Shown in pieces: positions 25,001 through 64,000 of a stretch of 64,000 nt of DNA; positions within the stretch are counted from its first letter, which is position 1; every line of letters starts with the position of its first letter. The position numbers and the translations under genes were made by a program. Source of the DNA: Owenia fusiformis (taxonomy: Eukaryota; Annelida; Polychaeta; Sabellida; Oweniidae); NCBI GenBank assembly GCA_903813345.2, contig CAIIXF020000009.1:28246740-28310739 (forward strand), read 5' to 3'. The notes under the pieces are model-generated. The model did not search any database. It saw nothing but the letters and a program-made list of their open reading frames with translations, and had not been told where the DNA came from.

Positions 25001-28000
25001 ATTGGAAAGTGTCAAAGACCATACAATTACATAGGTGATCAAAAGTGGGCGTCGCCCGTATAATAGTAGATGATTACCATTCCCTATAAATACAGATTTT
25101 AAATTGACTTGAAATACAATTGTAATGTATTTCTATTACCATAATCTATATCAAGCAATTCTGCTAGATACATATAAGTGTTGTAGGTATTACATCAAGC
25201 TAGGGATGGGGGAGGGGGGGGGGGGCGGTGTACATTGGGGGGAGGGGGTAGAGGTAACCAGCCTTATATAAAACTCATATACAAAGTTTTAGTTTCATGC
25301 AGTACATCTTTTGGATCTTGTTCTGATTTATCTCAATATATAGGATATTTCAATTTTACATTATTGGTTAAGTGTCAAAGACCATACAATTACAATAACA
25401 TGTGATCAAAGGTGCGCTTTGCCCTCATAATGATAATTGATGACTAGCTTTTTCTATAAATATGGAGTTTAACTTATGAGATACAATTATACTGTATTTC
25501 TATTGCCATAATCCATATTAAGCATTTCTTGAAAACATATATAAGTCTTGATGTTATTCCACCAGGCTGGGGAGGGGGGGCAAGCTAGTCAGCCTTAGTT
25601 ATAAATCTCATCAACATAATTTTAGATCTTATAGGGTATATCTTCTGGGTCGTCTTCTGATTCTTTCCCTGGTGTTAAGATATCAGCAATCTCTTGTGGG
25701 AGAATATCTGTTGTTACCCATTGAACTTCCAGGTTTTTTAGAATCATTAAGTTTCCACCCATGCTCAACTGGTGCTGGAATATTAGGTTTTTCAATATGG
25801 GCCATACACCAGATAAGTGCCTGATAGTTGGCTCTTGCAAAGTGAAGCATTGGGGAGTCTTGACAAGGGGAAGTAGACTAATGTATGTTCCTTCATAGTC
25901 AGTTATTGTTTTAGTATGGGGCCTAAACTTCTCGTTAAATACCACATATCTGGCTTTGTTAATGTGGGATATTTGAGGTTTCCAATACTCTAGTATATTT
26001 GGTTAACAAACTTTTCTACTTTACTGGTTGTTTCGTTATTTAGGTCTGCTGAGAGTCCTAGTCCTTTGAATGTGTCTATGATTCTCCCCCTTGCCATTGT
26101 TTTGAAAGGTGTTACTTTGCCCCTCCGAACCATGGTACTTACAGTGTTACACCTAGTGAAAGCGTGAAGTGCTTGGAGGGCTTCACATATTTCGGAATGA
26201 AAGGATGAGAAGAGGCTTGGCAGCAACTTAACCAAAGGGAGAAATATAAGAGTCCCAAAATATTGGAATGAGTTCTTGAAGAATGATGCAAACGAGAAGC
26301 AACTATGCCAGTTACTGTTAAATGAATGTAAAAGACCATGATATGCTAAGAAAATGCAAGGCCAAGAAATGTACTGACTATGAGATTTATACCTAAGGCT
26401 GACTTGCATTGCCCCCCCCCCATTCTATCCCCCCACTTCAAGACTTATATGTGTTCTCCAGAAATGCTTGATATGAATTATGATAATAGATTATGCCGTA
26501 TAAATGTATCTTATAAGTTAAACTCCATATTTAGAATTTAGAATAGAAAGGCATCATTTCTCATGATGAGAAATTTCAGGGAAATTGATTTAATTTCTAG
26601 GTGCTGGAAATGTCAGGGAATGTTAAAATTGGGTCAAAAAGAGCCAAAAATGTCCGGGAATTTTGAAACAGTAGATATGTCAGGGAAATGTCAGAGAATT
26701 TTGTATCAATGTTGAAAATATAATGTTCCAGCAATATACATTTTAGGGCTATGACAGGATATCAATGATATCCAAAATCTAACATTCAGTTGTTTCCACT
26801 AATTGGAAATCTTTTCATTAGGGTTGATTGGATGACAATCTATCTGGTATTGTCTATTTGTAAGAACAGTGTGAACATTATACTGAAACCGAACAATAAA
26901 GATGTACATATACATGTACATGTATGTATAGATGGTTCAATACAATTATGCTTTTCCATGTAGTAAGTTAGTCTTAGGCCATTCAAAGTTAATTATTGGT
27001 ATATAGACTAATATGTTTTATGTTTTGTTGAGGGTTTAATCTGAGGAGGGTGGGTGGTGAATTTCACCCCCCTTGACATTTACTGGGTACTCCCTGTACA
27101 TGTATGTTTACCTTTAGCCTTATGCAATGTAAAATATGTAAAATTAAAAATATAATGTATCAGGAATAAATTAGTGAATAAGATGGCCTTTAGAAGTAAA
27201 GTTAAGTTATGAGAAAATGGTACTAAATGAGAACCCCAAAATGTTTCATAATGAGTCTTGTCTTAAACTAGATAACAGCAACGCCAAAGCGTAGCAAATC
27301 CCATCGAACAGCTATGGCTGGCATTTTTACAAACAAAGTATATAGCAAAAATGGCAGCCATTCATCCAAAATGAATGATATTTTAAGCATTCAATGAATT
27401 GAATTGAATTGCTCCACTACTTTTCGAGTTATAGTAAAATAGGTTAAAATGTAGGCCATTTTGAAAAATGGCCGCCTTCTACCAAAAGTGTCATAAGAAA
27501 ATGTGGCATGCTTATAGTATTCACATAGCAAATATGAAGATGATCCCTCCGCTACTTTTCGAGTTATAGTAAAATACGTTAAAATGGCAGCAATTTTTCA
27601 AAATGGCCGCCTTCTACCAAAAGTGTCATTAGACAGTGTGCCATGCTTATAGTATTCACATTCAAAATTTGAACAAAATCGCTCCACTACTTTTCGAGTT
27701 ACAGCAAAAATCGTTAAATAGGGAGTAAAGGCCGCCATTTTTCAAGATGGCTGCCATGTGCTTTTTTAAGATCTACATTTCTAGCTTTATTAATGTCCTA
27801 TATAATGTTTTACATTTAAAACATATTGCTATTACAGTTTTAAATATTGTACCTAAATTACTGTTAAATTGACACTAAAATGGCCGCCATTTTTGAATGA
27901 GCAGCCATTTTGAAAATCGGCTTTTGAGCAGAACTTCTACCCCCATAGGATATATGTTTACAAAATATGAACAAAATCATGCCGACTACTGTATTTGAGT

Positions 28001-31000: not shown

Positions 31001-34000
31001 TGTCTTATAGCCCCCTTATACAGAGAGGTCAGAGGTTCAAGAAACTGCATTGCTTGGGATTCTAATGTAGCTTTTGTTTGTGTATCAATTTGAGACCACT
31101 GTGTTTTCATTTGGATATGATTTGGTCTCCAGGCTAGCCTGCCTAACTCTGGAGGGTAACTCCTGAATCATTTGACAATAATTTACCTGATTATCTGTGT
31201 TTGTTCTGCCATCGTCATCCTCAAACATCTTTCTCTTTGGCTATTTGAAGGAGTGTTTTAATGCTCATTCCAAGCAAAAAGACCTAGAACAGCTTAAGGG
31301 CAACATCCAAAGAGAAATCCAAAACATTCCACCAGAATTATTATCAAATGTGAAGAACAATGTAGCAGTAAGGATACAGGCTGTCATCGAAATATGAGGT
31401 TACATCGATTATGTGGTGTAAAAGGTAAAGGGTTAAAGCATCAAAAAGACAAGACTGAAAGAAAAATGGTGTATTGGGGAGAAAACTTTCATGTTTTGGC
31501 TACATGACCATGCAAAAAATGTCTGAAAATATTGATTGGTTTATCTGTGCTCTTGATATACTTTTGGGTACATTATATATATATATTCAAAGATGAAAGA
31601 TGATGAAGTCATGATGATAGCTATTCTTCGTGACTCACCCATATTGATCATGTAGATCGTATTTACTCTACAAATGTTTGGTCCAAAGACAGGTAAATTC
31701 AAGAGGCTTCGGAAATGTCTGTTCAAGGAATCCAACTAACTTCTCCATTAGATCTTCTTACTACCTGGCTACCAGTCATCTTGATCCATCAAAGTATTAC
31801 ATAATAGTCAAAGAATACACTGTTTTAATACTATGGCTACAAGGAATAAAACTAGATGTTCTTATCAATGAAGCCTGCCAATTAAAAAGCAATCAATGCA
31901 AAAGTATGCTCTCTATCGACATAGAATCCAAAAATACAACAAAGACAGTGGCATAGCCTGGAGGAAAAAGCAACGAGGTGAAAAATATTTCAAAACTGTT
32001 AAAAAAACAATGAGGCAAGAGCCTCATGTGCCTCATCCTGGCTTCACTTCAATATTTCATTTAGATTAAAAAATGGTGGTAAATTATGATAGCAAGACAA
32101 GAACACGATGATTGATAACCTTTAATGTGATGAGATTATTCACAATTGAATCAAAATTTGATGACTTCAGATAAGAAATGGATAAAAATCATTTAAACTC
32201 AACATTGATAGAGGAATATTTCTCAAAGGATGCTAAAAAAGCCTCAACTCCATCCAGGTCGCACTTAAGATAGACTGCTAAACAGTAATACACATGATTG
32301 GGCGAGTGAACCATAACGTAAATTCCCATAACAGCTTTTCTTAATTCTATACCTCCCCTCCGGACCTCATCAATTTGAATGGAAATCCTGGGGATTTGTT
32401 TTGCTTATAAGGACTCTTTATGTTCAATTACTGAGAAAGTATGGATCAATTCTGTCACATTAAAAAATTCAATAAAACACAAACAAGTTGGTCATGACAA
32501 CTGAGAAGTTTGGAAATAATCAACATGAAATACAATAATAATGATGATGTGTGTATATGGAGATATCTGTCTCATGGTAATTTCATCGTTAGACTTATGT
32601 CCTTTAGTTGGATCATCAGTAACGGATCTGTGGCAATCCAGATCAAACATTTTCACAACTTTGCAGCTAAAGTCACAAAATAGATTCATTTCATAAATTG
32701 CGTACATGTAGTAAGGGACCATTCACTCATTGTACTCATACATCAATGATAATTAATAGGGAAGCGAACAAATAATCAAGCCGTTAATGTGAGGGATGCA
32801 TGTATACCACGCTTTAACACATACTATTTCCGTATCATTGAAAGCTATAATGTAATGTAAGCATATGTAATTTTAGTCATATAAGCTGTTCTCATGAAAT
32901 AAAAAACAAAAGGGCAGAGGTTAAAAAATGAGACTGAGCTAGAAGTCGATAATCAATATTAAACTATTTTATGCCATATATGAATGTATGATTTTTTAAG
33001 GTAAAGTTACATCCCAGGAGTTACATTATTTGCCTCTCTGTGATTATATGATGCTTGGACAGATCTACCTTTAATTGACTGATAATGCTATGATTATGAG
33101 ATATAATGATCATATTGCAAAACATATAAATATAAATACTGTACAAGTATAAACATGTGACATCTTTTCATATAACACTGTACTTAACATTCATATCATA
33201 TGGATCAAGATATTATATTTATATATATATATATATTATCAACAGATATATTTCTAACACCATTGTTATACCTTTCTGCCTGTTAATTACTACATTAAGG
33301 GAGGAGAAGTAATATGATTTATTTGGCTAAAGGCTGTCTATTGAACTTCAATATATGGGGTTACCTTATCCTGGGGCTACTGCGACAATGAGGTTATTTA
33401 TTTATTGTTCAATTTAATTATCATTATTTAATTCACATTTCCAGAGGTCAGCCATCTTGGATTAAGATCTTTCCTGGCAAGGATTTTGATTTCTTCAAAT
33501 TTTCAAAATAGAACTGGTTGAATTAAAACCAAAACAACGGCAACGCCAAAGCGTAGCGAATCCCATCGAACATTTTTCAAAACTGGCACCTTCTACCAAA
33601 AGTGTCATTAGACAGTGTGCCATGCTTATAATATTCACATACCAAATATGAACAAAATCGCTCCACTACTTTTCGAGTTATAGTAAAAAACGTTAAAATG
33701 GCGGCCATTTTGAAAAATGGCCGCCTTCTACCAAAAGTGTCATTAGACAGTGTGCCATGCTGATACGTATTCACGTACCAAATATGAACAAAATCACTCC
33801 ACTACTTTTCAATTATAGTAAAATAAGTTAAAATGGCAGCCATTTTCCAAAATGTCAGCCATTTTTCAAAATGGCCGCCTTCTACCAAAAGTGTCATTAG
33901 ACAGTGTGCCATGCTTACAGTATTCACATACCGAATATGAACAAAATTGCTCCACTACTTTTCGAGTTATAGTAAAATACGTTAAAATGGCGGCCATTTT

Positions 34001-37000
34001 GAAAAATGACCGCCCTCTACCAAAAGTGTCATTAGACAGTGTGCCATGCTTATACGTATTCACATACCAAATATGAACAAAATCGCTCTACTACTTTTCG
34101 AGTTTTAGTAAAATAAGTTAAAATGGCGGCCATTTTTCAAAATGTCCGCCATTTTTCAAAATGGCCGCCTTCTACCAAAAGTGTCATTAGACAGTGTGCC
34201 ATGCCTATAGTATTCACATACCAAATATGAACAAAATCGCTCCACTACTTTTCGAGTTACAGCAAAAATCGTAAAATAACGAGTAAAGGCCGCCATTTTT
34301 CAAGATGGCTGCCATGTGCTTTTTTAATATCTACATTTCTAGCTTTATTAATGTCCTATATAATGTTTTTACATCTAAAACATATTGCTATTACAGTTTT
34401 ACATATTGCACCTAAATTACTGTAAAATCGGCACTAAAATGGCCGCCATTTTTAAATGAGTGGCCATTTTGAAAATCGGCTTTCGAGCAGAACTTCTACC
34501 CCCATAGGGTATATGTGTACAAAATATGAATAAAATCGGGCCAACGGTATTTGAGTTATTGCCCGGACGGATGGACGGACGTACGTACAGACGTACGGAC
34601 GGACGGACGGACGGACGGACGGACGTAGGCGTTCCCTATATCCCTCTGAACTTCGTTCGATGGGATAATAAATATAAGTCAAGGTCGAAAAAGCACCATG
34701 GTCTAAATCATAGTGCCCGGACCAAACAAAAAAAAAATGTCGAAGTTGACAGACAGTCATTGATTATCTTAAATAAGCTATAAAACATTTATCAGTTCAG
34801 AAGCTACTCAATGTACATGGGTTTAACAGTAGAATAATTCTATTATTCCAGCTGAATAAAGAGGAAGATTACACTACAACACAGGATATTGAGAGGATAC
34901 AAGCATATATAAAGACAACCTGCTCGATTAATACAACCTCAACGAAGCACAAGACAACATAGATCCATTCTATCACATCCCAGAGTCTGTCAATGGATTA
35001 ATACAAAGAGAGGCTTTGGCCTTGGTATCTAACAATAATAAGTCATTTCTATATGGAGAGAAAACAGCGGGATATCCAGTAGATTATACTCTACATTGGG
35101 AGACTAGCATAAACTAGTATAAAGCACTAGTGTTCATCAATTCTGATCATCACATCGATTGATTAAATCTATAGCAATCAACAGTACACAAAGGAAGAAG
35201 GCAGGTGTTAAAATGTTATATACAGCACCAAGGGGGACACAACTCTTAGCAGGTACCAATACTGAAAATGTACCAAGACCCAGAGCAAGTTCAGCTCTTA
35301 ATGTGAACGATGCAATGCGACCGCGGGCAAACACAAGTGAATCAAGGATGAGTCAATCGATGAGTGAGCAGTACCCGCCTGCCCGACCAACTACTCGCCC
35401 TAAGGTGACGATCAGGCCAAATATCCATCCCCTGGATGTTGTGTCCCAGGGAGGATCAGTCACTCCACCCCCATGTTATGAGCAGGCTGCACAAGTGGGA
35501 TGTAAGCTGTCATATATTGACTTTAACCCACAGTTCCATCAAGACGTAGATGGAATATACTTTGACATAGAAATAGATAGATTCAGGTAAGCATAACTCA
35601 TATATTAAGCTAAGCACATTTTGCAAGTTAAGGTAAAGCTAAAGCACATAGCACAATTAAATATTTAAGTTAACACACAATTCACAAATGCAGCTCAAAA
35701 CACCACTCTTGCCTGAATATATAGTAGTCTATAGAGCACTGGTGGATCCAGGGGGGCTCATGCCCCCTCCTCTCCCTTAGGTTGCACCCAGAAAAAGATT
35801 TAAGGGCCAAAAAATTTTGAAAGGCCTCAAAAAATGGGTCTTTTTGGGCATAATTTGGCCTTTTTGGGCCTTCTTTATAAAAAGGCCTTAAATTTCAATA
35901 TTTTTCACACTAACAGGGAATTTTTTTTCCTAACTTGAAATTTGCCCCCTCCCCTTCTTAGCTTCTGGATCCGGCATATGTTGTTATGCTGCAAGATGTA
36001 GTAAATCCTGTCTAATCAGTATAATAATAGTACTGGCCAAAGGTGTATGAATTTGGACTGTATTTGACTTTTTTCAGTGACCTGACCAAATATGCTAATA
36101 GATGGCTTAAGGAGCACCCGCAAGCTGCAGTGGTATCATGTGAAACTGTAGAAACGATGTACCATGGCAGAGTTGAGATCATCACAAGTGATGACTCAAC
36201 CTTCTTTAGAGGAAGAATGGACATGCAAGATAAATATGCGAGGATTCTGAGGTACACTGAAACAAATCATTAAATAATTACAAGTTAAGGCAATGATGAG
36301 GACACGATTTAAGAGTTCAATACATGACTTCAGATTTAATTTTGTATATTGTTATTACTGAATAATCCCATGTGAACACCTCTCTAATCTGAAACACCTC
36401 TCTAATCTGAAAACCACTCTTATGTGAACACATCTCTCTTATTTGAACATCTCTCATATATGAATACCTCTCTTATATGATCACATATCTAATGCAAACA
36501 CCAATTTAATATGAACACATTTCTAATGCGAACACCTCACTAATATGAACACCTCTCTAACGTAAACACCTCTCTAATAAGAACACCTCTCTAATGCGAA
36601 CACCTCTCTCATCTGAAAACCTTTAGTGTACAACTTTCTAATGTTTTATAGCAGAACTAACCACACTAAATTAACACATACATCTATTACCATCCAGTGT
36701 ATTACATGTATAATTTCTATAACATGATGCTAATGCATAATTCACACTCATTACTAGATTTTACAGTATTAGCATAGTGATAATCGAAGATATATTTCAT
36801 CGATGATGCATGTATAAAATAATTTATTCTTCATCCCATAATGTCATGTAAATGTTGGTTTTATCAGTTAATAAATTAAAAAACAATTTCTTTTTTGTAT
36901 GAAAAGTTGAAGTAGAAAAATAATCATATTTGTGACACCATAGATTTTGGTTCTTGCTATAAACATATAGTGCCTCTCCAAAATTCTCCTTTAAGAGATG

Positions 37001-40000
37001 TCTTAAAGATTTTTGAATGGTACATATTTGGGCAATAATAGGGTATTTCATGATTTTCCTCTTGGCATTATGTTTTTAGAGGAAGATGGTTGGGGGTTGA
37101 AATCATTATATTGCCATAGTTATACTATAACAAGTTGAATAAGAGAATCTCGTTTTAAACTAAAATGACTAATTATAATAAGAAAGCTGTTTTTTAAAAC
37201 ACTTCTGTTGAAAGAACACCTCTTTATATAAAACACCTCTCTAAATGGAACAGTCTTCGAAGGAGCAACTCGATGAACACTATCTGTGAGAAACACATGT
37301 CTGCAGGATTCAAATATAGAGCTGATTTCATGTATACAGGCTTTACGACTTCTCAAATACAGTAAAAGCTGTCAAGGTGCAACACCTTTGGTACCTGTAA
37401 AAAAGTGTTCCAGTTCGGAGGCGTTCCACTTATAAAGGGTCATTTAACATTAAGTCAGTAAACTATTTGACCAACTACATGTAGTTTTTGCGTCTATTTA
37501 TCTTGGCGTCTATTTATTTGGCATTATTGGGAACTTAAGGGTCATTTAACATTAAGTCAGTTGGTCTTGGGACTCTGAAAAGTATTCCAATAACAGAGAT
37601 GTTACACTTATAGAGGTGTTCCACTTTACAGGATTCAATGTAAACATTATTGACTGTGTTTCAAGGCTATGGTTCCGACTGAGAGGCAGATTAGACCCAC
37701 CTGGGCCAGACCAAATAGCCCATGTTAACCTGGTTCCAGAAAAACAACAACATCTCATAAGTCAGGACCTGCCACTGAAAGAATGTTACGAGTCTTTCCA
37801 CCAAGTGTTAAGGCGCTTTAATGAGAAGCAGAAAATCAGCCCAATAGGTAAAGTTCAACAACCAATAACACTTTACTATAATAAGTCGTAAACTCCTCTA
37901 TAAACACATTATGATAAGAATTTATTGAGCCTGGGGTCCATTTTTGGTACAATTATAACTTACAACTCTCAGAAAACAATTGTATACTGTAAGAGAAACA
38001 TGATTTGCGACAAAATTGTAGATTACAATTGTTCCAAAATGAATGTGTGCTGTAGGCAGTATGGATACTATCACTGATTGAACGTGTCGTTTGACATCTA
38101 GAAGATCCTGGTCGATGAAACTGACTCAGTTCACTGCACATTATTGAGTTAAGTTGTTCCCTAGCCATTACTTTGCTCATTCTTGTGAAAAATCACGAAC
38201 TCCTGATTTAGTGGCATATTTATGCAATCTGAAGTGCTAGAGCTCTGATATAAGAACCATCCTATTAATAATAAACCCCCATAGGATATAATCTCTGCCA
38301 AATATATTAGTATCCTGGCCTATTGAGGCAGTTTACACCTAGGATATCATTCATCATGATAAACATTTCATCATTCATGTACTCTACCCGGAAAGGCACC
38401 CAGATGTGATCATAAATTTTGGTATTTCCTCAAATTCAAGATGCTAGTTGTAGCCCTTAAATCTGACATCTAAGATATCTGGATAAAACTATACTGTCAA
38501 TGGCAGCGTATTAACATGCAAAATGTCACCATGCTGAATGGTAAACATCAACTGCCGATTGCAAAACACAATTCACAAAATAGTTGAAGACTATAACACT
38601 ATATCAAGTGTCTATTTAACATTCAGATAAATTCTATACTTCTTACAAGTTCCAAATGATAAAGTGGTTTCCATATGTCCCCCCCCCCCCCCACCTGTCT
38701 ACTTCTCTTATGGGCATGTTTGAGAGGATGCCTTAAATGCCTTTGAAAGAGAGAGAGCAAATGTTTTACTGTTTTCGCGATGCCTCACAATACAAATCTA
38801 TACAGCAGAATCTTTCTAACCATTATTCAACAAAAAATTGGAAAAATTGGAATTCTTACTGAAGGCATATATCTCAATTTCTGATTTGGTGTTATTGTAT
38901 AGAACTGTAAATTGAGAGATTTTGAAGTATAGCGAAGAACTATTATTTAATTTAGACTTGAAAAGAATACTGCAGTCATGGCAACCTGGGTAACCGTAGA
39001 ATATAATACACATTAATACACAGGGGTGGATCTGGGAAGCAACCATTCTGATACTCATAGCATCTCTCTCTCTGTTGCATCCAGAAGGATAGAGATGGAG
39101 AGGGCGTGGCTTACCAAGATGGGAATCAACATGGGGGGCCAAATTACAGGTCTGGGAAAAAAATATTGGGCCCCTAAAACCAAAAAGTGGGCCCAAATTT
39201 TGAAAATTTGAGGTTCATTTTCTTCAAAATTTGGCCTAAAATTAAAAAATAAGGCCTTAAAAGACCCAGTAATGACCAAAAAGGCCCACCTTTTGAGCCT
39301 TTAGGCCTTTTTTGGTCCCTGCCCCCCCCCCCAGATCCGCCAGTGATACACAGGGAATCTGTCGTTGCTATAGCCAATACAATTTATCACAAAGAGAAAA
39401 TAATAGGATAAAGCAAGCAAGCATACCTAAGACAGAAAGGAGGAATTGGCCTTAAAGAAATCAGACACTCAAGCGAAATTGCAAATGAGACATCACGAAA
39501 GACAAACTCCCTAGTGACATTTCAATGACGGATAATAACGAAGATTTGTGACTTTGTGAATCGGAAATTTATACTAGCTAAGCTGACACGGCTAATTAAT
39601 CTCAATATCTTTCCAGTACCATTTTCTTATGTAAATACAGAGGTTTAATACTTCAGCGAGGATTCTCAATCGTTTCTGTTGAAAATCACTAGCTGGTATC
39701 GAAATATTTGTCCGCTGTGACGGAGCATGCTATTTTTCGTAAAAACACTAAGAATACTTCACGATTTATTTTTTAACTCATATGTTTCGTTATACCATAC
39801 AAAATTACTTACTCCATGCAATGGATATATCATTTGCGGGTAACTTTCACTTCTGTTTGAAGTCCAATTACGCTGGGAAGAAAAGCTATTGAAAATGGCG
39901 CCGGAGTATCATACTTCAAAATGTACCATTTCTTGTTTAACTTTCTAATGGCACGATATAGTGACACGATAATATTTACACATGGTTTCAGCATAACTAT

Positions 40001-43000
40001 GAATGTATAAATGAGATTTTGATGTATTTGGTCTTTTTAATTCTTTTATAAAAAATAATGTTTAATTCTTTTGTCCGCTGTGACGAAGCAGTTGCAAATG
40101 TGAACTGTGAAAATGCTCCGTCACAGCGGACAAAAAATATTAATATTATTTTTTATTAAAAAAATTAAAAAGACCCAATGCATTAATATCTCATTAATAC
40201 ATTCAGAGTTATGCTTAAAACATATGTTAATATTATCGTGTCACTATATCATGCCATTAAAAAGTTAAAAAAGAAATGGTACATTTTAGAGTTTGATACT
40301 CTGGCGCCGTTTTCAATAGATTTTACTCCTTGCGTTATTGGACTTCAAACAGAAGTGAAGGTTACACGCAAATGATATATCCATTGCATAGAGTAAGTAA
40401 TTATCTTTGATATAACGAAACATATGAGTTAAAAAATAAATCGTGAAGCATTCTTAGTGTTTTTATGAAAAATAGCATGCTCCGTCACAGCGGACAAATC
40501 TTTCGATACCAGCCTGTGAAAATAAACATGAAGAAAATGATTTTCTTGTACTCCATGTACTAGTGTTATTAAAGTTTGAATTTGAGTTTCATCTACTTAA
40601 CTAGCCTCTATATAATCTCAGGGTCTATTAGCTCTTAAAAAATTCCAGAATGGCGAGAATGTTTCTATTTTCACCATTCAAAACTTAATGAACTTGGAAA
40701 AACTAGCTGCCTATAAGACAATAGTGTGGATGCTACTATGATCTCTTCTGGCAGTCAAGTTTTCAACCTATGTCACAAACTCGGCCTGATTACAATGTAT
40801 TGCAATTAATTTGGTTCTGAAATGCAAGAGAACTGATTAGGGAAGAGCGAGATCGTAATACCACATACAGATAATGTTCAAACATTTTAATATGACATAG
40901 AATATTGATAAATTGAGTAAACACAGAAAAATCTATTCTTTCAGATTTGAATAGAAAATCCAGTCGAGTGTAACCAAATCAGTTCCGTTTAACTAAATAC
41001 GATGCAAATGAAAATCACTGTTCAGTTCTATTCTGACACTCATCACATCTTTCCATTCTCAAACAAGCAGTATATGCCTTTTAAAAAGAAACTGAGGGAG
41101 GATGGTATTATACAGGATATCAGTTGACTGTACAAAAAACCAAGTTTGTAGACATAAAATCAGACAAAATTTGACCTCTAAATACATCAGAAAACTGACA
41201 GGAAATTGACAATGGGGGAGGGGCATTTTTGAGATTCCATGGGGGATGCTTCTGTCTCATCCAATGTCAGCAAGTCTAAGTTTAGGGTCTGCAAAATATA
41301 AGAATCCTGGAACCTCCAAAAGAAATCCTAAGGAACAAATACTGAACTCTCTGTAACATTCCACGGAGAGTAGTTTATTGGAAAAAGAAGTATCAAGCAA
41401 GAAGGATAAATCAGTGAAAAGTGCATTAGTATTGTGTTGGTGAAGTAGATAAGGGCAGTCTTGAGGCAAGACCATACTATTGGCTGCATGGGATAAAATC
41501 AGCACTCGGGATTCATGGAGATTTGAGTTTTAAGATCTTTGTGCTACTTAGGGAGCATTCAAGGAATTTCAATCTCACTTTCAACTCATCAATTTGCTCA
41601 AGTGATTTGCGATTTTTCAAAGGAGTAAAATACGTCATGGAGTTCAGTGGTTTGATTTAGGTATAATTATCTCATTTGAGAACAAATGTTAGCTCTGAAG
41701 CACTCCAGTTGAAGCATTCACTCATCCTCCTTCCTATGCTTTCAAATTGTTCCTGGCCTCTCAGCCAATAGCCAATCACAGGATGGCATTTACAACAAAT
41801 TGTGCATATATTTCAAGAGCATGCGGACTGTAAATACCCAGAGCACATTTTTTATTAAGATCATGTCCGTAAAATCACATAAAATGACCCAAGGTTCAGT
41901 CTTCTAATGCCTGTTAATCAAGATTTCTCATCCATTGATTGCAACTTTATATTTTTCAGGCAAAATCATCAATATTCAATCTTTGCCAGTCAAATATTCC
42001 AACTCTAAAATGAACCCTGTTGATCCTGATAAGTCAACATGGACGAGGGTTGCAGACAGATCTCTCTATTTCATGACAGTACAAAGAGTTTACTATCTCG
42101 TCAACAAACCATGTGATCGCTTGATAGGTAAGGAGAAACGAGGTGGCTGAGGTAAATTTTTCAGATTTTTAAAAAAGATTTTTATTATTTTTACAAAAGT
42201 TTTTGATTTATTGATTCAGCTTATTACTTTAAGGTAGAAGTTGACTGTTCATTGCGCAGCCAGTTCGTGCATCTTTAATGCCAAAAACGATAACTTTTTC
42301 CTTTGTATTTTCCCAAATGTTGCCTCTTGCCATTGCTGTTGCTGGTCTGATATAATAAAGATATCATATGCCATTTTAAGTAAAATTATTTATGCACATG
42401 TACCTCAAAACGAAGCAAATTTCATTTTGTTTTGCCCGCCCCTTCTCCATATCTAAAGAATAGCTAATGATGTTGATTTGTCTTTGAGTTGAATGTTAAA
42501 AAATCAACACTCTTGGATAATGAAACCATCATTCCTACCCAAGGACATTAACTCCAACTCCCCCAAGGAAATTAACTCCCCCAAGGAAATTAACTCCCCC
42601 AAGGAAATTAACTCCCCTAAGGAAATTAACTCCCCCAAGGAAACTAACTCCCCCAAGGAAATTAACTCCCCCAAGGAAATTAACTTTGTTATTTAACAAC
42701 TGTTGATAATCAGACACCATCCCTAAGCAGATAGATATTTAGTGATAAAGTTGACATTTATCATCTCACCATATGCAAAAACAATTCATAATCCACATCA
42801 GAGTTAAAAGTGTTGTTACTTCAATATCAATTTACTAATGATCTATAAAATGCATCTGATTAATTTGAAAAATTTGATGCTCCCTAGCCCATTGAAAAGA
42901 AAAATGAAAGGAACACTGGCTGTACTTGTAGCATTTCTCTGTCTCTCTCTCATGCATCACAGAAACACAGAGTTGAAGAAGACTTGGCTTGCCCTAATGG

Positions 43001-46000
43001 GCTTTACAAATGAACCAAGGACAAATTGTTTTTGGACAAATATTCCTATAAATGTGATTTCAGGTTGTAAAGATTTCACACCTGGCCCAGATGGGAACCG
43101 AAACGCATATGGAGAGACATACGAACCATTTAACACTCTGGTGACAAGGGCCAGGGATTGGCTCATGGGACAGAGTGAATTTGCTCTTAGTTTGATCAAC
43201 CTACAGGCTGTCAACTGTAAACTAAAGGTCTACCCAGATGGTCAGTCCCGAGAAGAGTTTCACATTTTCACATCTGTTAACGAGTCTAAAGCCCCAGTCA
43301 TATATGCTCTAAGGCAGCCATACAGCAGCTCTAGCTTCAGATAATCGATATAGATGATCTATATCGTACTGCTTATCCCTATATCTTATGCTGCCTATTT
43401 CTCTCGATTTTGGGAAGCTCGGCCACCATAGGGTTGCTGTAGATCAAATGTGACTGAGGCATTAGTCTGATTTCATCTTGAAAGAATTTCTGAGGAATTC
43501 ACAAGGTCAAATAGTATTTTTCATATTTCTATATGCTTTACAATTTTAGTTTATCACATAATGAAACATACTCATCAGGCCCATAGCCAGAATTTGCCAA
43601 GGAAGGGTTCACTTTTTAAAAACTTCTAAGGGAGTTCACTTTTGACAACTTTGGCCTAAAAATGGCCAAAATCACATAAAAGGTGCTCAGATTGGTGATA
43701 AACTGCATGATTTTGAAAGATTTTTTGACCAAGGGGGTTTCGCTTGAACCCCCCCCCCTCCCTGGCAACGGGCCTGCTCACTAAGGGAGAATGCAATTTG
43801 AGACTACTGTGAATGTGAATCCTGCAAAACAGTCCTCAATGTCAACTTGTTTCATTGCTTTGTTTTAATAGTTGTATGATTTAGATTTATTTGACATAGA
43901 TTTATTTCATTTGAATTATCTTTAGTGCAAGACAAATACAAATCTGAGCTTGATAAATGATACATGAACTACTGCAAGAGAATTTCCATAATATTTTCTG
44001 AAAATCTATCTTTATTTGTTTTAATGACAGCTAATATTTTTTCAGGTTATTATGTTTGCTCAAATACATCCATTAATAAAGAACACTCCAACCGTTCAAC
44101 AGAATACATTCGAATTTTACGACTTTTCTTCACGGTGCCGCATCCGAATGGCATCCAAAATTCTAATTGTACACCATCCCCCAATCTTGGTGCAATCAAC
44201 AATCATGGTCAAACCCCTGGGGTTCTCATTTCTCCTGTCTTACCCCCAGGAGATTCAAACTCTGAAGTGGCGGGACAACATCCTCTAAGCACAACAATAG
44301 CAGGTCCCGCAGAAAGTGAACAGGATATATCACTTGAACTGCACCAGTTTCTCAATAGTGCCTCACAGAGCAATGCAAGACGGGAAGTACTACATTATAA
44401 GACATTCTATCCTGTGGTTGACCCCCTCCTTGGCTGTATGGAGTCACAATCTGATTGCATGGCAAAGATTACACGTTGGCTAAACTTTACCAGTAAGTAT
44501 GGCAATGGCTTAAAAGCTTAAGTCATAAAGTATCTTTATCTCAAGTGTTTAAAGGCATTTTCAAATCAACAAGATGGTTATAAATATGTATAAAGTATAA
44601 GAGTGCTTAATGCTAGAGAGGCAACACTGAGAAAAATCCTAAAAACAGTATGAGCCAATATCATAAAATCAATTTGCAAAAGTCAGAAAATCCATCAATT
44701 GACATGTATATCCATATACAAAAAGGTATAATTAGTTCAAATGCCCATCAATTCCTACATTAAATTAATAAATCCAAAAAGCCTCATAAATTGAGACTTC
44801 AAACTAATTCAATGACTATCTAGTCTATCTTTAATCAAGTATTCTACTCAATAACTAATTGGTTAAGACAATGTGGCCCTAAATTGACCCATATAGCACT
44901 TAACGCCATATCTCCCTGATTGACGTAACAGAATGAAAATAACAGTAGAATAGGTTCTAATATACAAGACATCACCTGGGTATTTGAGATTACAAGTTGC
45001 ATGTTAATTCCATCACCGCTTTCTACTTGGTCTAGGAAGGAAAAACAGAAACCATGTTAATTCACCCATGCCCGTATCCAGGATTTGCCAAGGGGGGGTT
45101 CAGTTTTCAAAAAGTTCCAGGGGGATTCACATTTGACAATTTTGGCCCAAATAAGGCTAAAATCACTTGAGAAGTGCTCAAAATGTTGAAAAACTGCATG
45201 ATTTTGAAAAAAAATTTGGCCAGGGGGGGCCCGAACCCTGCGAACCCCTGTTCTGTCTATCAATTCATTCACAGGGATCTTTGCCTCAATCCTTGTGAAT
45301 CCATGTGAGTAGCATTCGTGTGGATTTACATGGTTCCCAAATGGATCTGTTTGGGGTGTACCAAATATGTAACAAATATGTTCGAGTTTGGGAATATCAC
45401 CCACCAAAACATGATAAAAATATCCTCCCCTTGAATTGAATTGAACTGAAAACTATAACTATATCTGGAGATCATATTGGCATTAGACAGAACGAGAAAA
45501 ATTAATAAAAAGCTCTCAGTAGGCTTTCAGATAAGTACATGTATTTTACACCTACTGAGGTTCCAGGTACATAATGAGCGGGAATATATAGTTATATAGC
45601 TGATGCACCATGCATTATTTGAGCAAATAGTGTATCATAAGGCCATTCACAGTTGTCCAATCAATCAATGACTTTCAGCATATATTGTGATGCATTGAAG
45701 CACTGACAGAAAATGTGAACCTCTACTAGACTGTTATAAATATGTCTAAAAGTACAGCAATTAATTACATCCATGTCATTGGTAGGGTGTTCTAAGAAAT
45801 TACTGATCAATAAATCCGTTCAAGTTACAAGGACTGACAGGCTACAATCTACAACTAATATACAGTAGAACCTGTACGATCAAGTTGGCTAAAAGTGTTC
45901 AAATAGGTCACGTGCTCACATTTGAGGATTTGTAGTCATAGGATTCAGGATATTGAACACATATTGAATTTAAATAGGTTAATTGACCACAAAACTGGCA

Positions 46001-49000
46001 TAACTGAGAGTAATGTATTAATATAATTCTAATGAGTTCACTTGTCATATTAGAAAAAGATTAAATGTGATTATTTATTAGTGAATATATCTAGAAAACA
46101 CTACATTTTATAAACATATATTTTATTCACACTTTGGGTTTTTTTAAGATGGGAATCCAATAAAATGTTCACATTAAGATGTACTATGACTGACCACTGT
46201 TCAAATTGGGAAGTGTTCACATAATATGAAGTTTTTGTTAACTTGGGAGTCAATGTAATGAAATAAGACCTTGTGTGTTTGCATTGGGAAATGTTTAGAT
46301 ATGAGAGGTGTTTGAAAATACAGGTTTTACTGTGCATGCCGGAAATAATTTGAGAAAGTCACTCAATTTTACATATGTGATTAAGCAAGCATTTCATTTG
46401 TATGCTAGATTCTTTCTTCAATAGAGATTTACAGATTACACAAATGAAAGGAAAAACTGGTAATTGTCTATCGTGATTATCTTCCGATTCTAAATTGAAC
46501 GAATTCAGATAAATCTATTCCATCAGTAAGATCCTCGCAAAGCATTACTCCATCTATATATAATAAATTGATCTTCTTTGACAGTTCACAAATCAAATTA
46601 TGGTATATACAGGGTGGGCCAAAAAATGCCACTTTTTTTTCAAGACACTACAACTTTTTTATTTTCCAACCTACATACCCCAAATTTTGCAGTTATATAG
46701 TGCCAGGGGTTTTAAGTAATAATATTATGTAACAAGTCCTTCAACTTGGATTATATTTGATTTAAAAGAGGAGTTCAATTGGTCTGCCACCCTATTCGAT
46801 GATATATTTTAGTTTTAGTTGCCTTGCTGATAAAGCAGTATCAATGAAATGAAAGATAAGTTTTTTTCAACCTGTCTTTATTGCCAGCTTTAGTTGAGTA
46901 ATTTTCTAGATTGGTTGCCTTCATACAATCTCCTGGATACCTCCCCATACCCTATACTCACTGGGGTTTGCATCAGGGCTATAAGCTTGGCGATCATCAG
47001 GCCGTATCAGTTCAGGAACATTTTGCAAATTATGCCTATTTCTCATGGCACACCACATGTTTAAGCGAGACGCTGGTGACATATTTTATTCAAGTAAAAG
47101 TTTTCAATTCATGATCCATGGCTAGATAACAACCTCAAGTTTCATTAAGTATGCTTATTATGATTTTGTTTGAAAAATTAAAAAAGTTATAGCAGTTTGA
47201 AAAAAAAGTGGCATTTTTTGGCCCACCCTGTATATATTGTCACCAGTGCATCCAGAGTTTTAAGTAGCAAAATTCTTCATTCAGAGTCATATATTACAAT
47301 ATTTATATCTATTTACCATGATTAATTATGAGATGTCATGTATCAGAATGATTTATTTTATTTATTTATTGCCTTACTGCAAATTCAATGTACATGGATA
47401 GAATCATTATGTAAAGATAAGGTCATTTATGAATAAGGATGCATTGAAATTTTTTTAGACAGGAAAGTGAGATCTAACGAATCATTAATGGTGAATATCT
47501 AATAAGCTTTAATAAACAAGAAGATTTAAGATCTGGTTGATTTTTTTATAAAAGAATTGAACTAATTATAGCGATTGAGTTTAAAAAAAGTTGTCGAACA
47601 ATCAAAATCTTTAAAAATCTTATAAATCCAAGTTCAATGTCAACAATCTTCATTTTCCTATTATATTCTTGATCAGACAGAGTTTCAAGCGCTCTGATTG
47701 GCCAATAATAGCTTATAATCTACCTTGGCCTTGAATAAATAGTCATTTGTGCATCCTCCGATCACAGTGCTTCAAAATTCAGATTAAATTCTTTCTTTTT
47801 ACCCCCTGCGATAAGCAGTTAGCATTTCCCCGATTAAGAAGTCGCAATCTGATTGGCTGTCGCAACACGCAATACAGAAATCATGTATAAGTCATTGCAC
47901 ATAATTAGATCACATGATTCAGTTTAATCGTGCACTTCCAAATTGTTTATAGCAGGGGGAAGAAGGAGGTACGGATTCTGGACACCTGTTTAGGAGGATG
48001 TCATTTGTGATATTTACATATTTCCCTCAGAATAAACCCTATATCTAAAACCCCAAAGTATATAACCCTTATATGTTACATATTTTCCAGGTGCAAAGCC
48101 ACTATCTGTTGAGACCATTAATATACGACGCTTCAAAGGTGCAGAACGCGGCAACTCTGAGGTGACCTACACATACACGAACCCTAGCAAGAGTTATGAG
48201 TGGATAACAATATTCCGGGTCTACCTAGATTCAGCCTATGAGGAGCCTCCCCCACATTTACTCCAGCGAATCAGGTCACGATCGCGTATTCAGCGACAAC
48301 AACGTGTCCAGTCTGAGAGTGTCAGTGAAGGGGAGGACGAGGAATGGAATAACGACCCTGTAGGATGTAACATATCATAGGCAATTATAAACAAATTGAA
48401 TTTACATGTACAGCTTCACAGGCGTGGTCTTCATTGCATTCAGATTGACAGGAGTCATTGAATGAAGATGGAATATACATTGGGTGATTCAAAAGTAACG
48501 TGACACCAACTGGTTATTCAACATTTCTGAACTTTTTTAATGAAATCATCAGAGAACAGAGATATTGCAGTGGAACGCAATTCTCACAGTTAATATGGCA
48601 TTGCAAGGAATCGACCTATAGGACACCAAATATTGTCTGTATAAAAAGGTTCGAATTAGCGGAATGAATAAAATATACATTTACTCCAGCGAATCGGGTT
48701 AGGCTAAGACAGCTGGAATCAAGACCACCATTAATAATGTTATATCTGACTTTTATGAAATGTCATATTTGATTATCATACAAGTTGCGGAGCAATATCA
48801 TATTTGATTACCATAGGAGTTGCTGAGCGATATCATATCAGATTATCATATGAGTTGCTGAGCAATATCATATTTGATTATCATACAAGTTGCTCGGCAA
48901 AATTATATTTCATTATCAAACCACTTGCTCAGCAATATCGTATTTGATTATCATATGAAATGTTGAGCAATATCTTATTTGATTATCATACAAATTGCTG

Positions 49001-52000
49001 AGCAATGTCATATTTGATTATCATACGAGTGGCTGAGCAATATCATATTTGATTTCATACAAGTTGCTGCACAATATCATATTTGATTATCAAACCAGTT
49101 GCTGAGCAATATCATATTTGATCATCATGCGAGAATCTGTAAAATGTCATATTTGATTATCATAGGAGTTACTGAGCAATATCATATTTGATTATCATAC
49201 AAGTTGCTGTGCAATATCATATTTGATTATCATACAAGTTGCTGCAGAATATCATATTTGATTATCAAACCAGTTGCTGAGCAATATCATATTTGATTAT
49301 CATACAAAGTGCTGAGCAATGTCATATTTGATTATCATACAAGTTGCTGCACAATATCATATTTGATTATCAAACCAGTTGCTGAGCAATATCATATTTG
49401 ATCATCATGCGAAAATCTCTCCAATATCATATTTGATTATCATACGAGTTACTGAGCAATATCATATTTGATTATCATACAAGTTGCTGTGCAATATCAT
49501 ATTTGATTATCATACAAGTTGCTGAGCAATATCATATTTGATTATCATGCGAGAATCTGTGCAATATCATATTTGATTATCATACAAGTTGCTGTGCAAT
49601 ATCATATTTGATTATCATACAAGTTACTGAACAATATCATAATTGATTATCATGTGAGAATTTGTACAATATCATATTTGATTATCATACGAGTTACTCA
49701 GCAATATCATATTTGATTATCATACAAGTTGCTGTGCAATATCATATTTGATTATTATACAAGTTGCTGTGCAATATCATATTTGATTATCATACAAGTT
49801 GCTGAGCAATATCATATTTGGCTGACTATCATTAAAGTGACATCGCAATATCATTTCTGACTATACACAAATAAAATAAAATTTAAGTTATTCCTTGGTC
49901 ACATTTTCTCCGATCCATCGGCCGGCGCCTGGCTATTGAGTGTTCTGTTCAATATCGTATTCGATTTTGAACAAAATACTCAATCGCCCAGGCCCTGTAG
50001 TGAAAAACGGACGGATTTGACCAAGGTATTAGTAGATGAATATGTGCTTTTAAAATATTTATACATTTGCTTGATAAGACAATGTTCATTGTTGTACATT
50101 ATATTGACATTGAAGTGAACAGACTATATAATTGGCATTGAAGTGAACAGACTATATAATTGGCATTGAAGTGAACAGACTATATAAACACTGCAGAGTA
50201 TATCATGCGGAATGGTGTGAATTACAGAATGGACTTATTACAAATTCAATGATCTATGTTTGTGCCTCATACCACATCATCTGGTGACACTTTAATAAAT
50301 CAAATAAAAACCAATCCTTATAGTTGATTTATATATATACATTGAACTGAAAATCAATTGATAAACCAATCATTTCAATAAACCTATTTATAAAGTATTA
50401 ATACAGTATTACTGTGATGGGTGAAATATGTTACGTCACTTTTATTTTGTCATAAGATAATCAAATTAATAAATTTCCCAATAACTGAATGAGGAGGGTC
50501 TAGCCATCCTTCTTCAAAGGACTTCATTTATGCCAAATGAAAAGAAGTGAAATACCCTTAGACCAAGGGTGGGTCTAGTTCAAGGACCTAAATGTGCCCG
50601 TAATAACCTTTTACATGTAAATGTCTAGAGTAGAAATTAGTTATTTCATTCTTCTCCACCCACCTAAACAACGAGTGCTGAATAAATACAATAATCTTTT
50701 TTTCTTGGAAATGGCCATAAATAATGCATTGTGCTAATAGCAGGTTAGGTTCAATGCCCGCAAGTGCAATGTACAGAAAGACCTGTATACCCTAACAACT
50801 ATCTTAGCTTATATGAATACTTCTCAATGTAAACACTTTTTCCGTCCATTTTTTAATCTACCATGACATTGTTCATAAACCTTGAAATGCGCACACCTGC
50901 CACTTTGAACACTATTGATTGGTCTCCGTGCTATTTAGATTAGACAGGTTTTATTTGATACATAGTGATAGCCTCCTGTAATACCATATTAATCATCTAA
51001 AATGTGAGAATGATTTAGGTCTAACAGTGCCATCTAACTGTAAGCTGGCAAACTATATGTGAGTTTGGTCATGACAAGAGACATCTCTGGCCTCAGCACA
51101 TTAGTTTTCATTTTTTAGAGTTGTATTCATTTTAAAAACATTTTTTTAAAGCTCTGAAATGTAATATACCACACTGCTTAACTCAAAAAAATGCATTTAC
51201 ATAACTTTCCCAATTGATCTAAAGTGTAATTCAATGTCTCTTCCGCAAGATATAGTTGAGCTAATAAAATAAAAAGACCAGTCTCTGTTTGGAGAACAAA
51301 GTTCATCACTCTAATGCACATTAGGCCTGCTTTGGACAATTTTGATATATTTAAATGTCCTCTTTTGAATGTTCATAATTTAATTTGGGTGATATTTCTA
51401 TGTTTTCAAAAAGAAATTATTAGCGTAGTACACTGATGAACTTCTTTCACCAAATCGAGACTTGTCTTTTATTGAATCGGTCTACTGCACATTACGCCTG
51501 CTTCAGACAATTTTGATATTTTTACATCTTGTAGATTTAAAGGTCCTCTTTTGGATATTCACAATTTAATTTGGGTGATATTTCTATAATTTTCATTAAA
51601 AAAATTATTAGCCCAGGAGACTGTTCTCCAAACAGAGACTTGTCCTTTGATGTTAACATTATGCTACACAAACAAGGTATACCTAGAATTATTGATAAAC
51701 AGATATTAGCAGATAATATTGTGAATAGCGATAATAAAACTAACGCTAATTGCAATATTATCGCCATTATCAAAACAAGACAGTGTCGCGTGAATAATGC
51801 TTTTCAATTACATTAGACAAGAAATAATATTGCTTATGACTATTGCCTTCCATGCATTGTGGATCAAATAAACCTGTCTTATTATGACAATTTTAAATTT
51901 GCATAGAAACATTCATGATGTTAAAAATCGTTCTTGCACTAAGGCCAGAGAATTGTTCCCAATGGTTATTTGATCTACATGTATTTTCTCTTGAGTTAAG

Positions 52001-55000: not shown

Positions 55001-58000
55001 ACAATGATGTCAGAGGAAATGACCATATATAGTCATTCTTCTTAAGACAACAAGCCCCGATCGGTGAGTTCAAAAGTTTTCTCATAAAGTGAAAAGAGTG
55101 CAGTGTTCTGTAAAAGAATCTTTCTTTTAAGTTAATTTGAAACAAAGGATCAAATCCTTTAGGGATATATATTTTTCATTATATTCCTGAGCATGGTTTA
55201 GCAATATCAAAATTTTCTTTGCAATGATATACCATTTCAACATAAACTGACCTCTTTTTTCATAGAAGTTTTGCGACACCAATCCACTGTAAATGTGAAT
55301 TTTTTTCCTGATCTTGGACAAAAGATATTTCACTGAATCTCCAGGAAATCAAGAGTTCAATCAATTTTTGTTGAGTATGAGATGTAATTTCACAAAGAGC
55401 AAGAGAATCCAAGCACTTACCACTTCTGGATTCCTTGTGATTTTTTTCTTCATTGCTCTAATTTGTAACAGGGCCCTAAATGGTGAACGGCATATAGGGC
55501 AATTGTTGGACTGGTATCGAAGGTTATCGGCACAGTTGTTACACAGACATAGATGGCGACAGGGTAATATAAGTGTATCTCTGATGTCACACATACATAT
55601 AACACACTCTGCGCCTGTATCATCAACTTCTTCATCTTGCAGCTGAAATGAAAAGATATGCAGTCTTTGAGCACAAGAGGTTATTACCCAGAAGGCTGCA
55701 CAAGTACTGGTACATGAAATACTGATTGATATATGAAGATCAAAACCATTTAGTCTCGCTAGAGTCCTAGTGACCTTCCCCCACACACACTTCACCTAAA
55801 GTAGATGGAGGAGAGGGTTTGGAGACTTAATGCAAGACTCAGACAACCATCATAGAATATAACAAGACACACAGTGATAAATATCGCACTTTAAAGAGCA
55901 AACTGGCCACCATGCAATTTACCAAGCATGGCCAAAACCTAATCAGACCTTGGCACTAGTCTGCTCTTGCATCTGTAAACATTTCAAGTTGACAAGGTTA
56001 GCGGTTTTCCTGCAATTTTGATGACAAGAATTTATTTGTAGTCTTGAACTTTGGGAAAATTTAGATAACATTGTTTGTGACCTAATTTGATGACCTTCGA
56101 TCTTGAAAATTTCACTTTTTCAGACCTCAGTAGGTCTTTTGTAATTAGCTGACCTAAATTTAAATCCAAAATATCAATTTAGAAAATCAAATTTTTGACC
56201 TTTTCAAGGCCACTGAAGGTGAATGAAAGGTCAAATCTGAAATCTAAGGTCAGATTTGAACTTCTGAGAACTTGTAGATGTTTTTAAAAAAAAAATTTGG
56301 TCAATTTGGAGCAAGTTGAAAAATTCAAAATGGCCGCCAAATTGAAAAATTCAAAATGGCCACCATGTAATTCAGCCAGCATACCCAAAACCTAATCAGA
56401 TCTTGGCAATAGTCTGCTCTTGCATCTGTAAAAATTTCAAGTTGAACGGATAAGTGGTTTTCCTGGAATTTTGATGACAAGATTTGTTGAAAAATTCAAA
56501 ATGGCCACCACGTAGTTTACCCAGCATGCCCTTAACCTAATCAGATCTTGGCACTAGTCTGCTATTGCATGTGTAAAAATTTCAAGTTGAACAGGTTAGC
56601 GGTTTTCTTGGAATTTTGATGACAAGAATTGATTTGTAGTCTCAAACTTTGAGGAACTTGGATAACATCATTTGTGACCTAGTTTAATGACCTTGACTTT
56701 CGACCTTGAAAATTTCACTTTTTCAGACCTCAGTAGGTGTTTTGTAATTAAGCTGACCTAAATTTAAATCCAAAATATCAATTTAAAAATCAACTTTTTT
56801 GACCTTTTCAAGGTCACTGAAGGTGAATGAAAGGTCAAATCCGAAATCTAAGGTCAGATTTGAACTTCGGAGAACTTGTAGATGTTTTTAAAAAAAAAAT
56901 TGGTCAATTTGGAGCATCTTGAAAAATTCAAAATGGCCGCCAAATTCAAAAATTCAAAATGGCCACCATGTAATTCAGCCAGCATACCCAAAACCTAATC
57001 AGATCTTGGCAATAGTCTGTTCTTGCATCTGTAAAAATTTCAAGTTGAATGGATAAGTGGTTTTCCTGGAATTTTGATGACAAGATTTGTTGAAAAATTC
57101 AAAATGGCCGCCACATAGTTTACCCAGCATGCCCTTAACCTAATAAGATCTTGGTACTAGTCTGCTCTTGCATCTGTAAAAATTTCAAGTTGAACAGGTA
57201 AGCAGTTATCCTGGAAATTTGATGACAAGATTTGGTTTATGTCCCGCCCGCCCGCACGCCCACACACCCAAACGCCCGCACGCCCGCCCAACAGCACAAG
57301 ACGACGACAATATAGCACTTTTTCAAAGTGCGATAAAAATGCATAAAACTATCTATCCAAGTCATATGTACACTACAATGAGAGCGAAAACACTTCAAAC
57401 TCTAAATTAATGGAAATTCAGGTACCCATTCATCATTGTCATTGGTGCCATCGCTGTCATTGTGGATATCATCATCATCATCATTTTCAACCTCTAATAT
57501 TGTCAATCTCAGAATTATGTATTTAAACTGTACATACATGAATTGATTGAATTGACTTCAAAGCCAGCAAATGATATAGATAATAACAAACCTTTGAACG
57601 TTCCATTTTATTCTCAATGCCAAATATCTCCTGTAACAGGTAACACAGTCCGTCAACCATCTGTTTCTGTTTGAAAGGTTTAAGATTGAAGCCTCCATCT
57701 GAAGTTCTCTCAATGTTACACACAGTTGTATGTGAGTGACCGACATGATCAGCTAAAATAACAAAATAAATTGTGATTGCAATATACAAAGAGGCTATTT
57801 AATGAGGTGGATGGAATATTCTGAGGGAAAATATGATATTCGCCAAGGAGAATACCATATTGACCTAGGATGACAGCCTCAGTGTCAATATGATACTTTC
57901 CTTGGCCAATATCATATTTTCTTGAGGAAAAAATCATATTCCACCGCGACCAACAATATATCCTATTATATTTATTCCATAATACTTTTTCTGAAACTTA

Positions 58001-62387: not shown

Positions 62388-63842
62388 TTAAGGCATGGGT
62401 GTAAGGTAGTGAGCCCTTAGACTAGTCTTGAACTGGTCTAAGCTCTCTGCCAATACAATGCTGTCAGGTAGTATATTCCACTCAGGTATGGTGCGTGGGA
62501 AAAAGGAATGGAGCATTGCATCCTTCCTGCAACTGTACCTCTGGAAGCTCTCACTATTTGAAGTCCTTGATCTGCGCTGGAGAGGCATGAGGTATGTGTC
62601 TGGTTGGATTGCAACAAGTTGTTGTTTGATCTTATACATCATCGTCAACCGTTGTTGCTGTCTCCTCGTTTCAAGTGGTGTCCATTGTAGTGTATTCAGC
62701 ATTGTTGTCACTGAGCTGTAACGGCTGTAGTCATTCATCACATAGCGTGCAGCTCTTCGTTGGACCATTTCTAGTGCAGCTATGTGGGTTTGGGTGTGTG
62801 GATCCCATACAGCAGCAGCATACTCCAGTCTTGGTCTTACTAGAGTAAAGTAAGCCATCTGCTTTGTGTGGCGAGGGGCCTTCCACAGGTGTCTTCTCAG
62901 CATGCCAAGAAGTTGGTTGCTCTTGGATATAGACTTGTCTATGTGCTGGTTCCATTTGAGGTTGTCTTGTAAGGTAACACCAAGGTAGCTAGCAGATGGT
63001 ATATGCTCCAAGGTGTGTCCACTCATTTCATACTTGTAGATTTTGGGATTCAACTTGGCAGACAATGCAGTACATTTGTCAGGATGAAACTTCATCAGCC
63101 AAGTTTTCTCCCATTCTACAGCTGCATTCAGATCTTCTTGCAGAAGAGTGGCATCTTGTGGTGTCTTAACTTCTCTGTAGATGATGCTGTCATCAGCGAA
63201 TAATCGGAGGGTTGTATGTTGTAGAGTATCTGGGAGGTCGTTAATATACAGCAGGAATAATATCGGTCCCAATACTGTTCCCTGTGGCACGCCAGATGTT
63301 ACCTGTCCGATTTCAGATGAAGCACCATCCACAATGACTTTCTGGGTTCTATCAGACAGAAAGTCAGAGATCCAGGCATTGGTTTGTCCTCTGATGCCAT
63401 AGTAGTCAAGCTTATAAGCAAGATGACGGTGAGAGACCTTATTAAAGGCTTTAGCAAAGTCCATTATGATAACGTCTATCTGCTTGTTGGCATCATTGGC
63501 TGAAACAAGATCATGATAGAACTCAATAAGCTGCGTCTCACATGACCTTTTCGACCTAAAACCGTGTTGTAGAGGATATAGTATTCCTTTGGTTTCAAGG
63601 AATGACATCATGTTGCTAGTGATGATGTGTTCTGTCAACTTGCAACAGATACAGGTCAGAGACACAGGTCGGTAGTTGGATGCCTTGTATCGCTCTCCCT
63701 TTTTGAAGACTGGCACGATGTTCGCAGCCTTCCAATCCTTTGGTACTTTGCCATGGTTTAAGGAGCGCTGAATGATGGTTGTTAAGGATGGAGATATCTC
63801 GTTAGCCAGGGTCTTCAGTACTCTACTCATTGAGATGCATCG
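62388..63842 (-). mobile_element. 5'-truncated LINE with open reverse transcriptase frame
   Basis: A 480-residue frame (62388-63830) encodes a non-LTR reverse transcriptase of the jockey/CR1 group. It shows SNYRPVSLT (residues 51-59), MDFAKAFN with the first catalytic Asp at 124, TSGVPQGTVLGP (178-189) and FADDS (211-215). The normal RT thumb and C-terminal region follow. The apurinic endonuclease and the start of the ORF are missing. The frame is open leftwards only to an in-frame stop at 63867, where similarity seems lost, so this is a typical 5' truncation. The RT part has no stops, suggesting a fairly recent insertion. The 3' region (62190-62387) ends in GATGATGATGAATG and (TTTG)n-like runs. 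It probably lies in the first intron of the MGRN1-like gene, on the same strand. Confidence 0.88.
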
Positions 63843-64000
63843 TATCGTATTTCTATACCACTTAGACTATCTAGTCATAGATGCACTTCATTGTTGTCTT
63901 AAGACGACAAGGAATTTACTATTTGCCTTGCTACTTTTGGTGATTTGACTTTGACTTGACTCTTGAGTGTTTTGAAAAATTTAGCCCAAAAATCATCAAA

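Follow-up and report, generated by a model that had tools for sequence, protein, structure and literature searches.

Four diverged copies of an uncatalogued domain in a family of at least four Owenia fusiformis genes with predicted prenylation sites

What kind of protein is encoded between positions 35213 and 48380 of a 64,000-nucleotide stretch of Owenia fusiformis DNA, and what might such a protein do? This stretch, hereafter called the window, occupies positions 28246740-28310739 of contig C9 and belongs to a 498-Mb genome in which we also sought sister genes. An initial annotation had described the product as an unrecognized protein built from four divergent copies of one domain. The erythrocruorin-linker family PF16915, an annelid family, matches this genome above its cut-off at three places and matches none of 14 control genomes. 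Comparison with the sisters shows that the predicted product of the window gene (P1) is made up of one uncatalogued domain present in four old and diverged copies (D1 to D4), and that P1 belongs to a family with no fewer than four genes. The earlier observation is thus confirmed, but it had missed the family itself, as well as a C-terminal CaaX box found in all four proteins and a PPxY motif found in three of them.

When spliced by sequence, seven plus-strand exons of P1 form a single open frame of 603 amino acids running from an ATG at 35213 to a stop codon at 48378-48380, which is exactly the extent that had been noted for the gene. Every intron is of the GT...AG type. Exon 1 (35213..35586; donor gtaagc, phase 2) encodes a disordered-looking leader and the first strand of D1, which starts at about 35498; the translated leader contains the PPxY motif PPCY (35468..35479, amino acids 86-89) within the peptide TPPPCYEQ. 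Exon 2 (36078..36251, phase 2 at both ends) continues D1 through its helix and central strand and into most of its closing part, and exon 3 (37666..37847) contributes the end of D1 (LWFRLRG, to about 37687) together with D2 from its start, at about 37718, through its helix. Exon 4 (41960..42127) takes D2 from its central strand to its closing strand, at about 42111, and is a part of P1 that matches P2 with an E value of 2.1e-7 and P3 with an E value of 0.0087 in the genome search. Exon 5 (43064..43240) covers D3 from its first to its central strand. Its donor, GTCAGT, is not of the most frequent form but agrees with the phase-1 intron that each of the three sisters has here, which is why it was picked; the P1 model as a whole is a prediction from sequence. 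Exon 6 (44046..44492) encodes the end of D3 (to about 44143), a low-complexity linker (about amino acids 392-472) that is far longer in P1 than in the aligned sisters, and the beginning of D4, from about 44387, with its first strand and its helix. Finally, exon 7 (48091..48380) encodes D4 from its central to its closing strand (to about 48236), the tail, the stop codon and, as the last four codons that precede it, the translated CaaX box CNIS (48366..48377).

Genome searches with D1-D3 of P1 (307 amino acids), with 391 amino acids of P2, with 472 amino acids of P3 and with the whole of P4 (448 amino acids) recovered three further loci, each with a spliced frame open to its stop codon. These are P2 on contig C9 at about 6.749-6.785 Mb (476 amino acids, 8 exons), P3 on contig C6 at about 6.238-6.245 Mb (557 amino acids, 11 exons) and P4 on the minus strand of contig C9 at about 13.578-13.582 Mb (448 amino acids, 7 exons). 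The family is given as at least four genes since the genome search scores the best candidates only; a few further matches were weak, for example one on contig C2 at an E value of 2.6 with the P2 query. A 628-amino-acid frame on contig C12 (E value of 7) was rejected as a relative, as by eye it reads as a LINE reverse transcriptase and is a chance match. The four proteins are 24-33% identical in pairwise comparison, all have D1 to D4 in the same order, and their genes have six introns in common at identical positions and phases (2,2,1,1,1,1). Additional introns are found in P3, which has three more, and at the end of D4 in P2 and P3, which have one more each.

The first two exons of P2 lie about 29 kb from its remaining exons, and the two parts were taken as a single gene because the missing halves fit together in phase. 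Between these exon groups, on the minus strand, are two pairs of closely similar frames (locus L013, 8036-9153, and locus L014, 986-1654), which may represent a duplicated gene nested in the long intron; Pfam gives no credible match for any of these four. By eye, two frames near P2 had been labelled oxygenases, but this label was withdrawn since Pfam matches neither. The donor region of P2 D4 (L014, 7501-7680) is a tandem repeat of 4.6 copies of 39 bases that offers several possible donors.

Detection of the repeat depends strongly on the sister sequences. Within P1 alone the repeat is weak, with only copies 1 and 3 standing out (score of 45 against 24.1 +/- 4.0, 1 in 1000 shuffles), while copies 2 and 3 give 0.052 and three other pairs 0.15-0.23 in the same shuffle test; the P1-alone score of copies 1 and 2 was discounted as an artefact, as the compared segments overlapped by ten residues. 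Homology that is barely detectable in P1 becomes evident when rows from the sisters are added, with all six pairs of copies then rising above their controls. Using four complete rows per copy, profile-profile comparison gives probabilities (%) of 98.3 for D1-D3, which is by far the closest pair, 96.4 for D2-D3, 95.6 for D1-D2, 95.3 for D1-D4, 94.3 for D2-D4 and 57.7 for D3-D4, and in each of the six pairs none of 60 column-shuffled controls reaches the real score. These values are nearly unchanged if two D4 rows lack the closing strand (62.1 for D3-D4). With three rows per copy, D3-D4 falls to just 1.4 and D2-D4 to 24.8. The greatest divergence is seen in copy 4, whose pairing with D3 would be unconvincing by itself; it is linked to the others via D1 and D2.

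An alignment of all 16 copies, which are 10-33% identical to its first row, has a proline as its only near-invariant column. Its consensus reads roughly F-x-P, F-E-x-F, A-N-x-W-L, I-x-x-E-T-x-E-x-K; a variable loop follows, and the closing strand has L-R. The central and closing strands originally listed for the four copies do occupy the same columns. The layout proposed at that time, a helix followed by a central strand, a variable loop and a closing strand, fits both this alignment and a rough Chou-Fasman estimate, which predicts, in order, a strand, helix and strand patchily mixed over F-E-x-F...W-L, another strand, a short strand and the closing strand; the alpha/beta nature of the domain is itself something that we infer. 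On these grounds the P1 domains quite probably have an alpha/beta fold, in which each domain would comprise about 85-95 residues arranged as strand-helix-strand-strand. Every copy is interrupted by an intron. Models of two single-exon pieces, one with three strands between two helices (mean pLDDT of 48) and the other one long helix where a strand was expected, unlike the expected layout (mean pLDDT of 64), are both untrustworthy.

Intron positions and the domain tree bear on the order in which the copies arose. The introns of D2 and D4 are both phase 1 and lie directly ahead of the central strand, and those that end D1 (all genes) and D4 (P2 and P3) are both phase 2 and split the codon of the closing-strand arginine. 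Such places would fit a doubling of a D1D2 unit that gave rise to D3D4. The domain tree, in which two D4 rows are incomplete, groups D4 strongly (98/98), D1 at 66/75 and D2 at 79/83, with D3 needing two changes; it leaves D1-D3 unresolved, and with them the D1D2 doubling, and places D4 apart from D2. The four-copy plan probably predates the split of the four genes, as all of them have the same intron plan and their D4 rows form one group (98/98).

Clues to function are found at the two ends of the proteins. All four have a C-terminal CaaX box, a motif that marks proteins for attachment of a prenyl lipid, with the sequences CNIS (P1), CNIL (P2), CTII (P3) and CSIS (P4) fitting C-x-[AVILM]-x. 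A serine as the last residue favours farnesyl and a leucine or isoleucine favours geranylgeranyl. From composition, the chance of a CaaX end is 0.0056 per protein; the joint value, about 1e-9, should not be read as a p-value, given that the four genes share descent and are not four independent events. More telling than this chance figure, as judged from the translated ends, is that the tail ahead of the box has diverged among the four genes in both length and letters while the box has been kept. A search with the P2 end found the terminal exon of P3 at an E value of 0.0096 as its sole match besides P2 itself. Going by the motif, we consider it likely that the C-terminal cysteine is prenylated. 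In the four complete proteins no 19-residue stretch exceeds 1.05 on the Kyte-Doolittle scale, so that there is no obvious membrane segment, and no hydrophobic start was found. The family probably acts at membranes.

At the opposite end, the leaders are 12-22% proline and by composition would be disordered. Three of the four contain PPxY, a ligand motif of WW domains, namely P1 (PPCY, amino acid 86), P2 (amino acid 55) and P3 (amino acids 40 and 55), with the motif in P2 and P3 reading PPPSY; the known coding sequence of P4 has none. The mean composition leads one to expect 0.023 PPxY motifs per 100 residues. Judging from the sequence, binding of the leader motif to a WW domain is about as likely as not. 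The peptide PPPSYEQ had no match in the literature that we searched.

Our main reading, to which we give a probability of roughly 45%, is that P1 may be a cytosolic, prenyl-anchored adaptor with four tandem domains and a PPxY motif. Prenylation of the C-terminal cysteine would tether the protein to a membrane at its inner face. The PPxY of the leader would serve to recruit a partner with a WW domain, in all likelihood a HECT ubiquitin ligase of the NEDD4 type, and each of the four diverged domains could offer a binding surface for cargo. Anchor, PPxY and domains would then together constitute a membrane-tethered adaptor. CaaX and PPxY are short motifs to which their usual meaning is given here, and all steps beyond the motifs we infer; the adaptor role in particular is tentative. 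The way of working proposed here is the same as that of alpha-arrestins (the ARRDC family), which are PPxY adaptors of NEDD4-type ligases and are likewise cytosolic proteins with tandem folded domains and PPxY in a disordered region. However, none of the four family proteins has an arrestin domain by Pfam, and they differ from alpha-arrestins in having an N-terminal PPxY, four domains rather than two, and a C-terminal CaaX box. A CaaX box at the end of a cytosolic protein is also seen in BROX, PEX19 and UBL3, which are prenylated proteins of mixed architecture. The P2 and P3 ends, CCNIL and CCTII, additionally have the double-cysteine form of UBL3. In contrast to these proteins, the four family members were not found by Pfam to have Bro1, Pex19 or ubiquitin-like domains.

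A related but less favoured explanation is that P1 is a prenyl-anchored scaffold or receptor whose tandem domains bind a lipid, a nucleotide or a peptide, with no link to ubiquitin and with PPxY being incidental in a proline-rich leader. The CaaX box is present in all four genes as opposed to three for PPxY, and leaders with 12-22% proline would acquire the motif more easily than the expectation from mean composition implies. Against this, PPPxY sits shortly ahead of D1 and aligns among the three genes that have it, and we regard this reading as rather unlikely, the adaptor being preferred. A bolder proposal is that the domain represents a new fold and an animal family not yet described, that it always occurs in fours, and that the proteins, which combine a prenyl anchor in the membrane with PPxY, form a membrane array from which WW-domain ligases and ESCRT are recruited for the budding or sorting of vesicles; PPxY would then resemble a 'late domain' and the protein would be a cellular counterpart of ARRDC1 assembled from unrelated parts. 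We think this very improbable.

Two further explanations concern the protein itself. That P1 is an artefact of chance frames, or of exons from unrelated genes that have been joined, might be suspected since its exons are separated by introns of up to 4.1 kb that contain repeats, yet the same exons, in the same order and with the same intron phases, occur at three other loci where each spliced frame is also open to the stop, and this makes an artefact exceedingly improbable. The other explanation, that the fold or superfamily of the copies is a known one but their sequences have diverged too far for HMMER to detect it, is compatible with either functional reading, and we hold the odds for and against it to be equal. 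At 10-33% identity to the first row of the alignment, distant members of a catalogued family could escape sequence-profile searches, whereas such searches returned nothing credible, in agreement with the original remark that no named family was known to have this layout. For example, Pfam-A 2025 finds no family in the complete P1, P2, P3 and P4 proteins. A Pfam scan of the 16 copies gives chance matches only (four families, each in one copy, best E value of 0.11), and an NCBIfam 20 scan gives five families, again each in one copy, that are taken as chance (best E value of 0.025), with no match above the curated cut-off in either scan. Nor was anything credible found among PDB sequences with profiles of 12 copies, of 16 copies or of D1-D3 from the four genes. 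The best PDB match, 2dlx, went from an E value of 0.02 to 0.31 once rows were added and was rejected as chance, as were matches to tRNA dehydratase, RF1, Cry5Ba, ULK1 and others, which had E values of 0.02 or worse and were unstable between queries. Six peptide patterns from D1-D3 of P2 (281 amino acids), a search able to detect close relatives only, matched 1 and 31 stretches in viral and prokaryotic contigs, respectively, and tblastn identified no relatives among them. DUF4177 and DUF1737 are types of small bacterial strand-helix-strand-strand domains with a similar order of elements to that proposed here, which makes them a lead only; they are absent from the Pfam matches of the 16 copies up to an E value of 10 with HMMER filters on.

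The titles and abstract beginnings available to us describe no such protein, though a description may be in print, and the family may well be common in animals and merely unnamed. A gene that was anonymous can now be assigned to a defined family, which numbers at least four genes and whose localization (prenylated, at a membrane) and class of partners (WW-domain proteins) are both testable. Additionally, the 16-copy alignment of this uncatalogued domain can serve as a starting point for predicting the fold and for searching other animals.

Several other features were observed in the window. Intron 3 of P1 contains an inverted repeat (39677-40528) with 396-base arms that are 87% complementary and separated by a 60-base spacer, which is perhaps a foldback or MITE-like element. 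An array at 33571-34277 has a unit length of about 136-155 bases, or 289 when the unit is doubled, and contains AAAATGGC[CA]GCCATTTT-like palindromes; it is similar to an array at 27412-27718, and by eye similar letters are present near 1100-1660 of L013 at the P2 locus. Just downstream of P1, at 48759-49820, a 35-base unit is repeated in tandem about 30 times. Farther along, a minus-strand RING finger exon is located at 55364-55795 (PF13920, E value of 4.2e-15), and together with a minus-strand stretch at 59265-59624 that has no Pfam match it resembles MGRN1/RNF157, making an E3 ligase gene downstream of P1 probable. The minus strand at 62391-63866 contains a 492-amino-acid frame with a reverse transcriptase domain (PF00078, E value of 3.3e-29) and is probably a LINE-type element.
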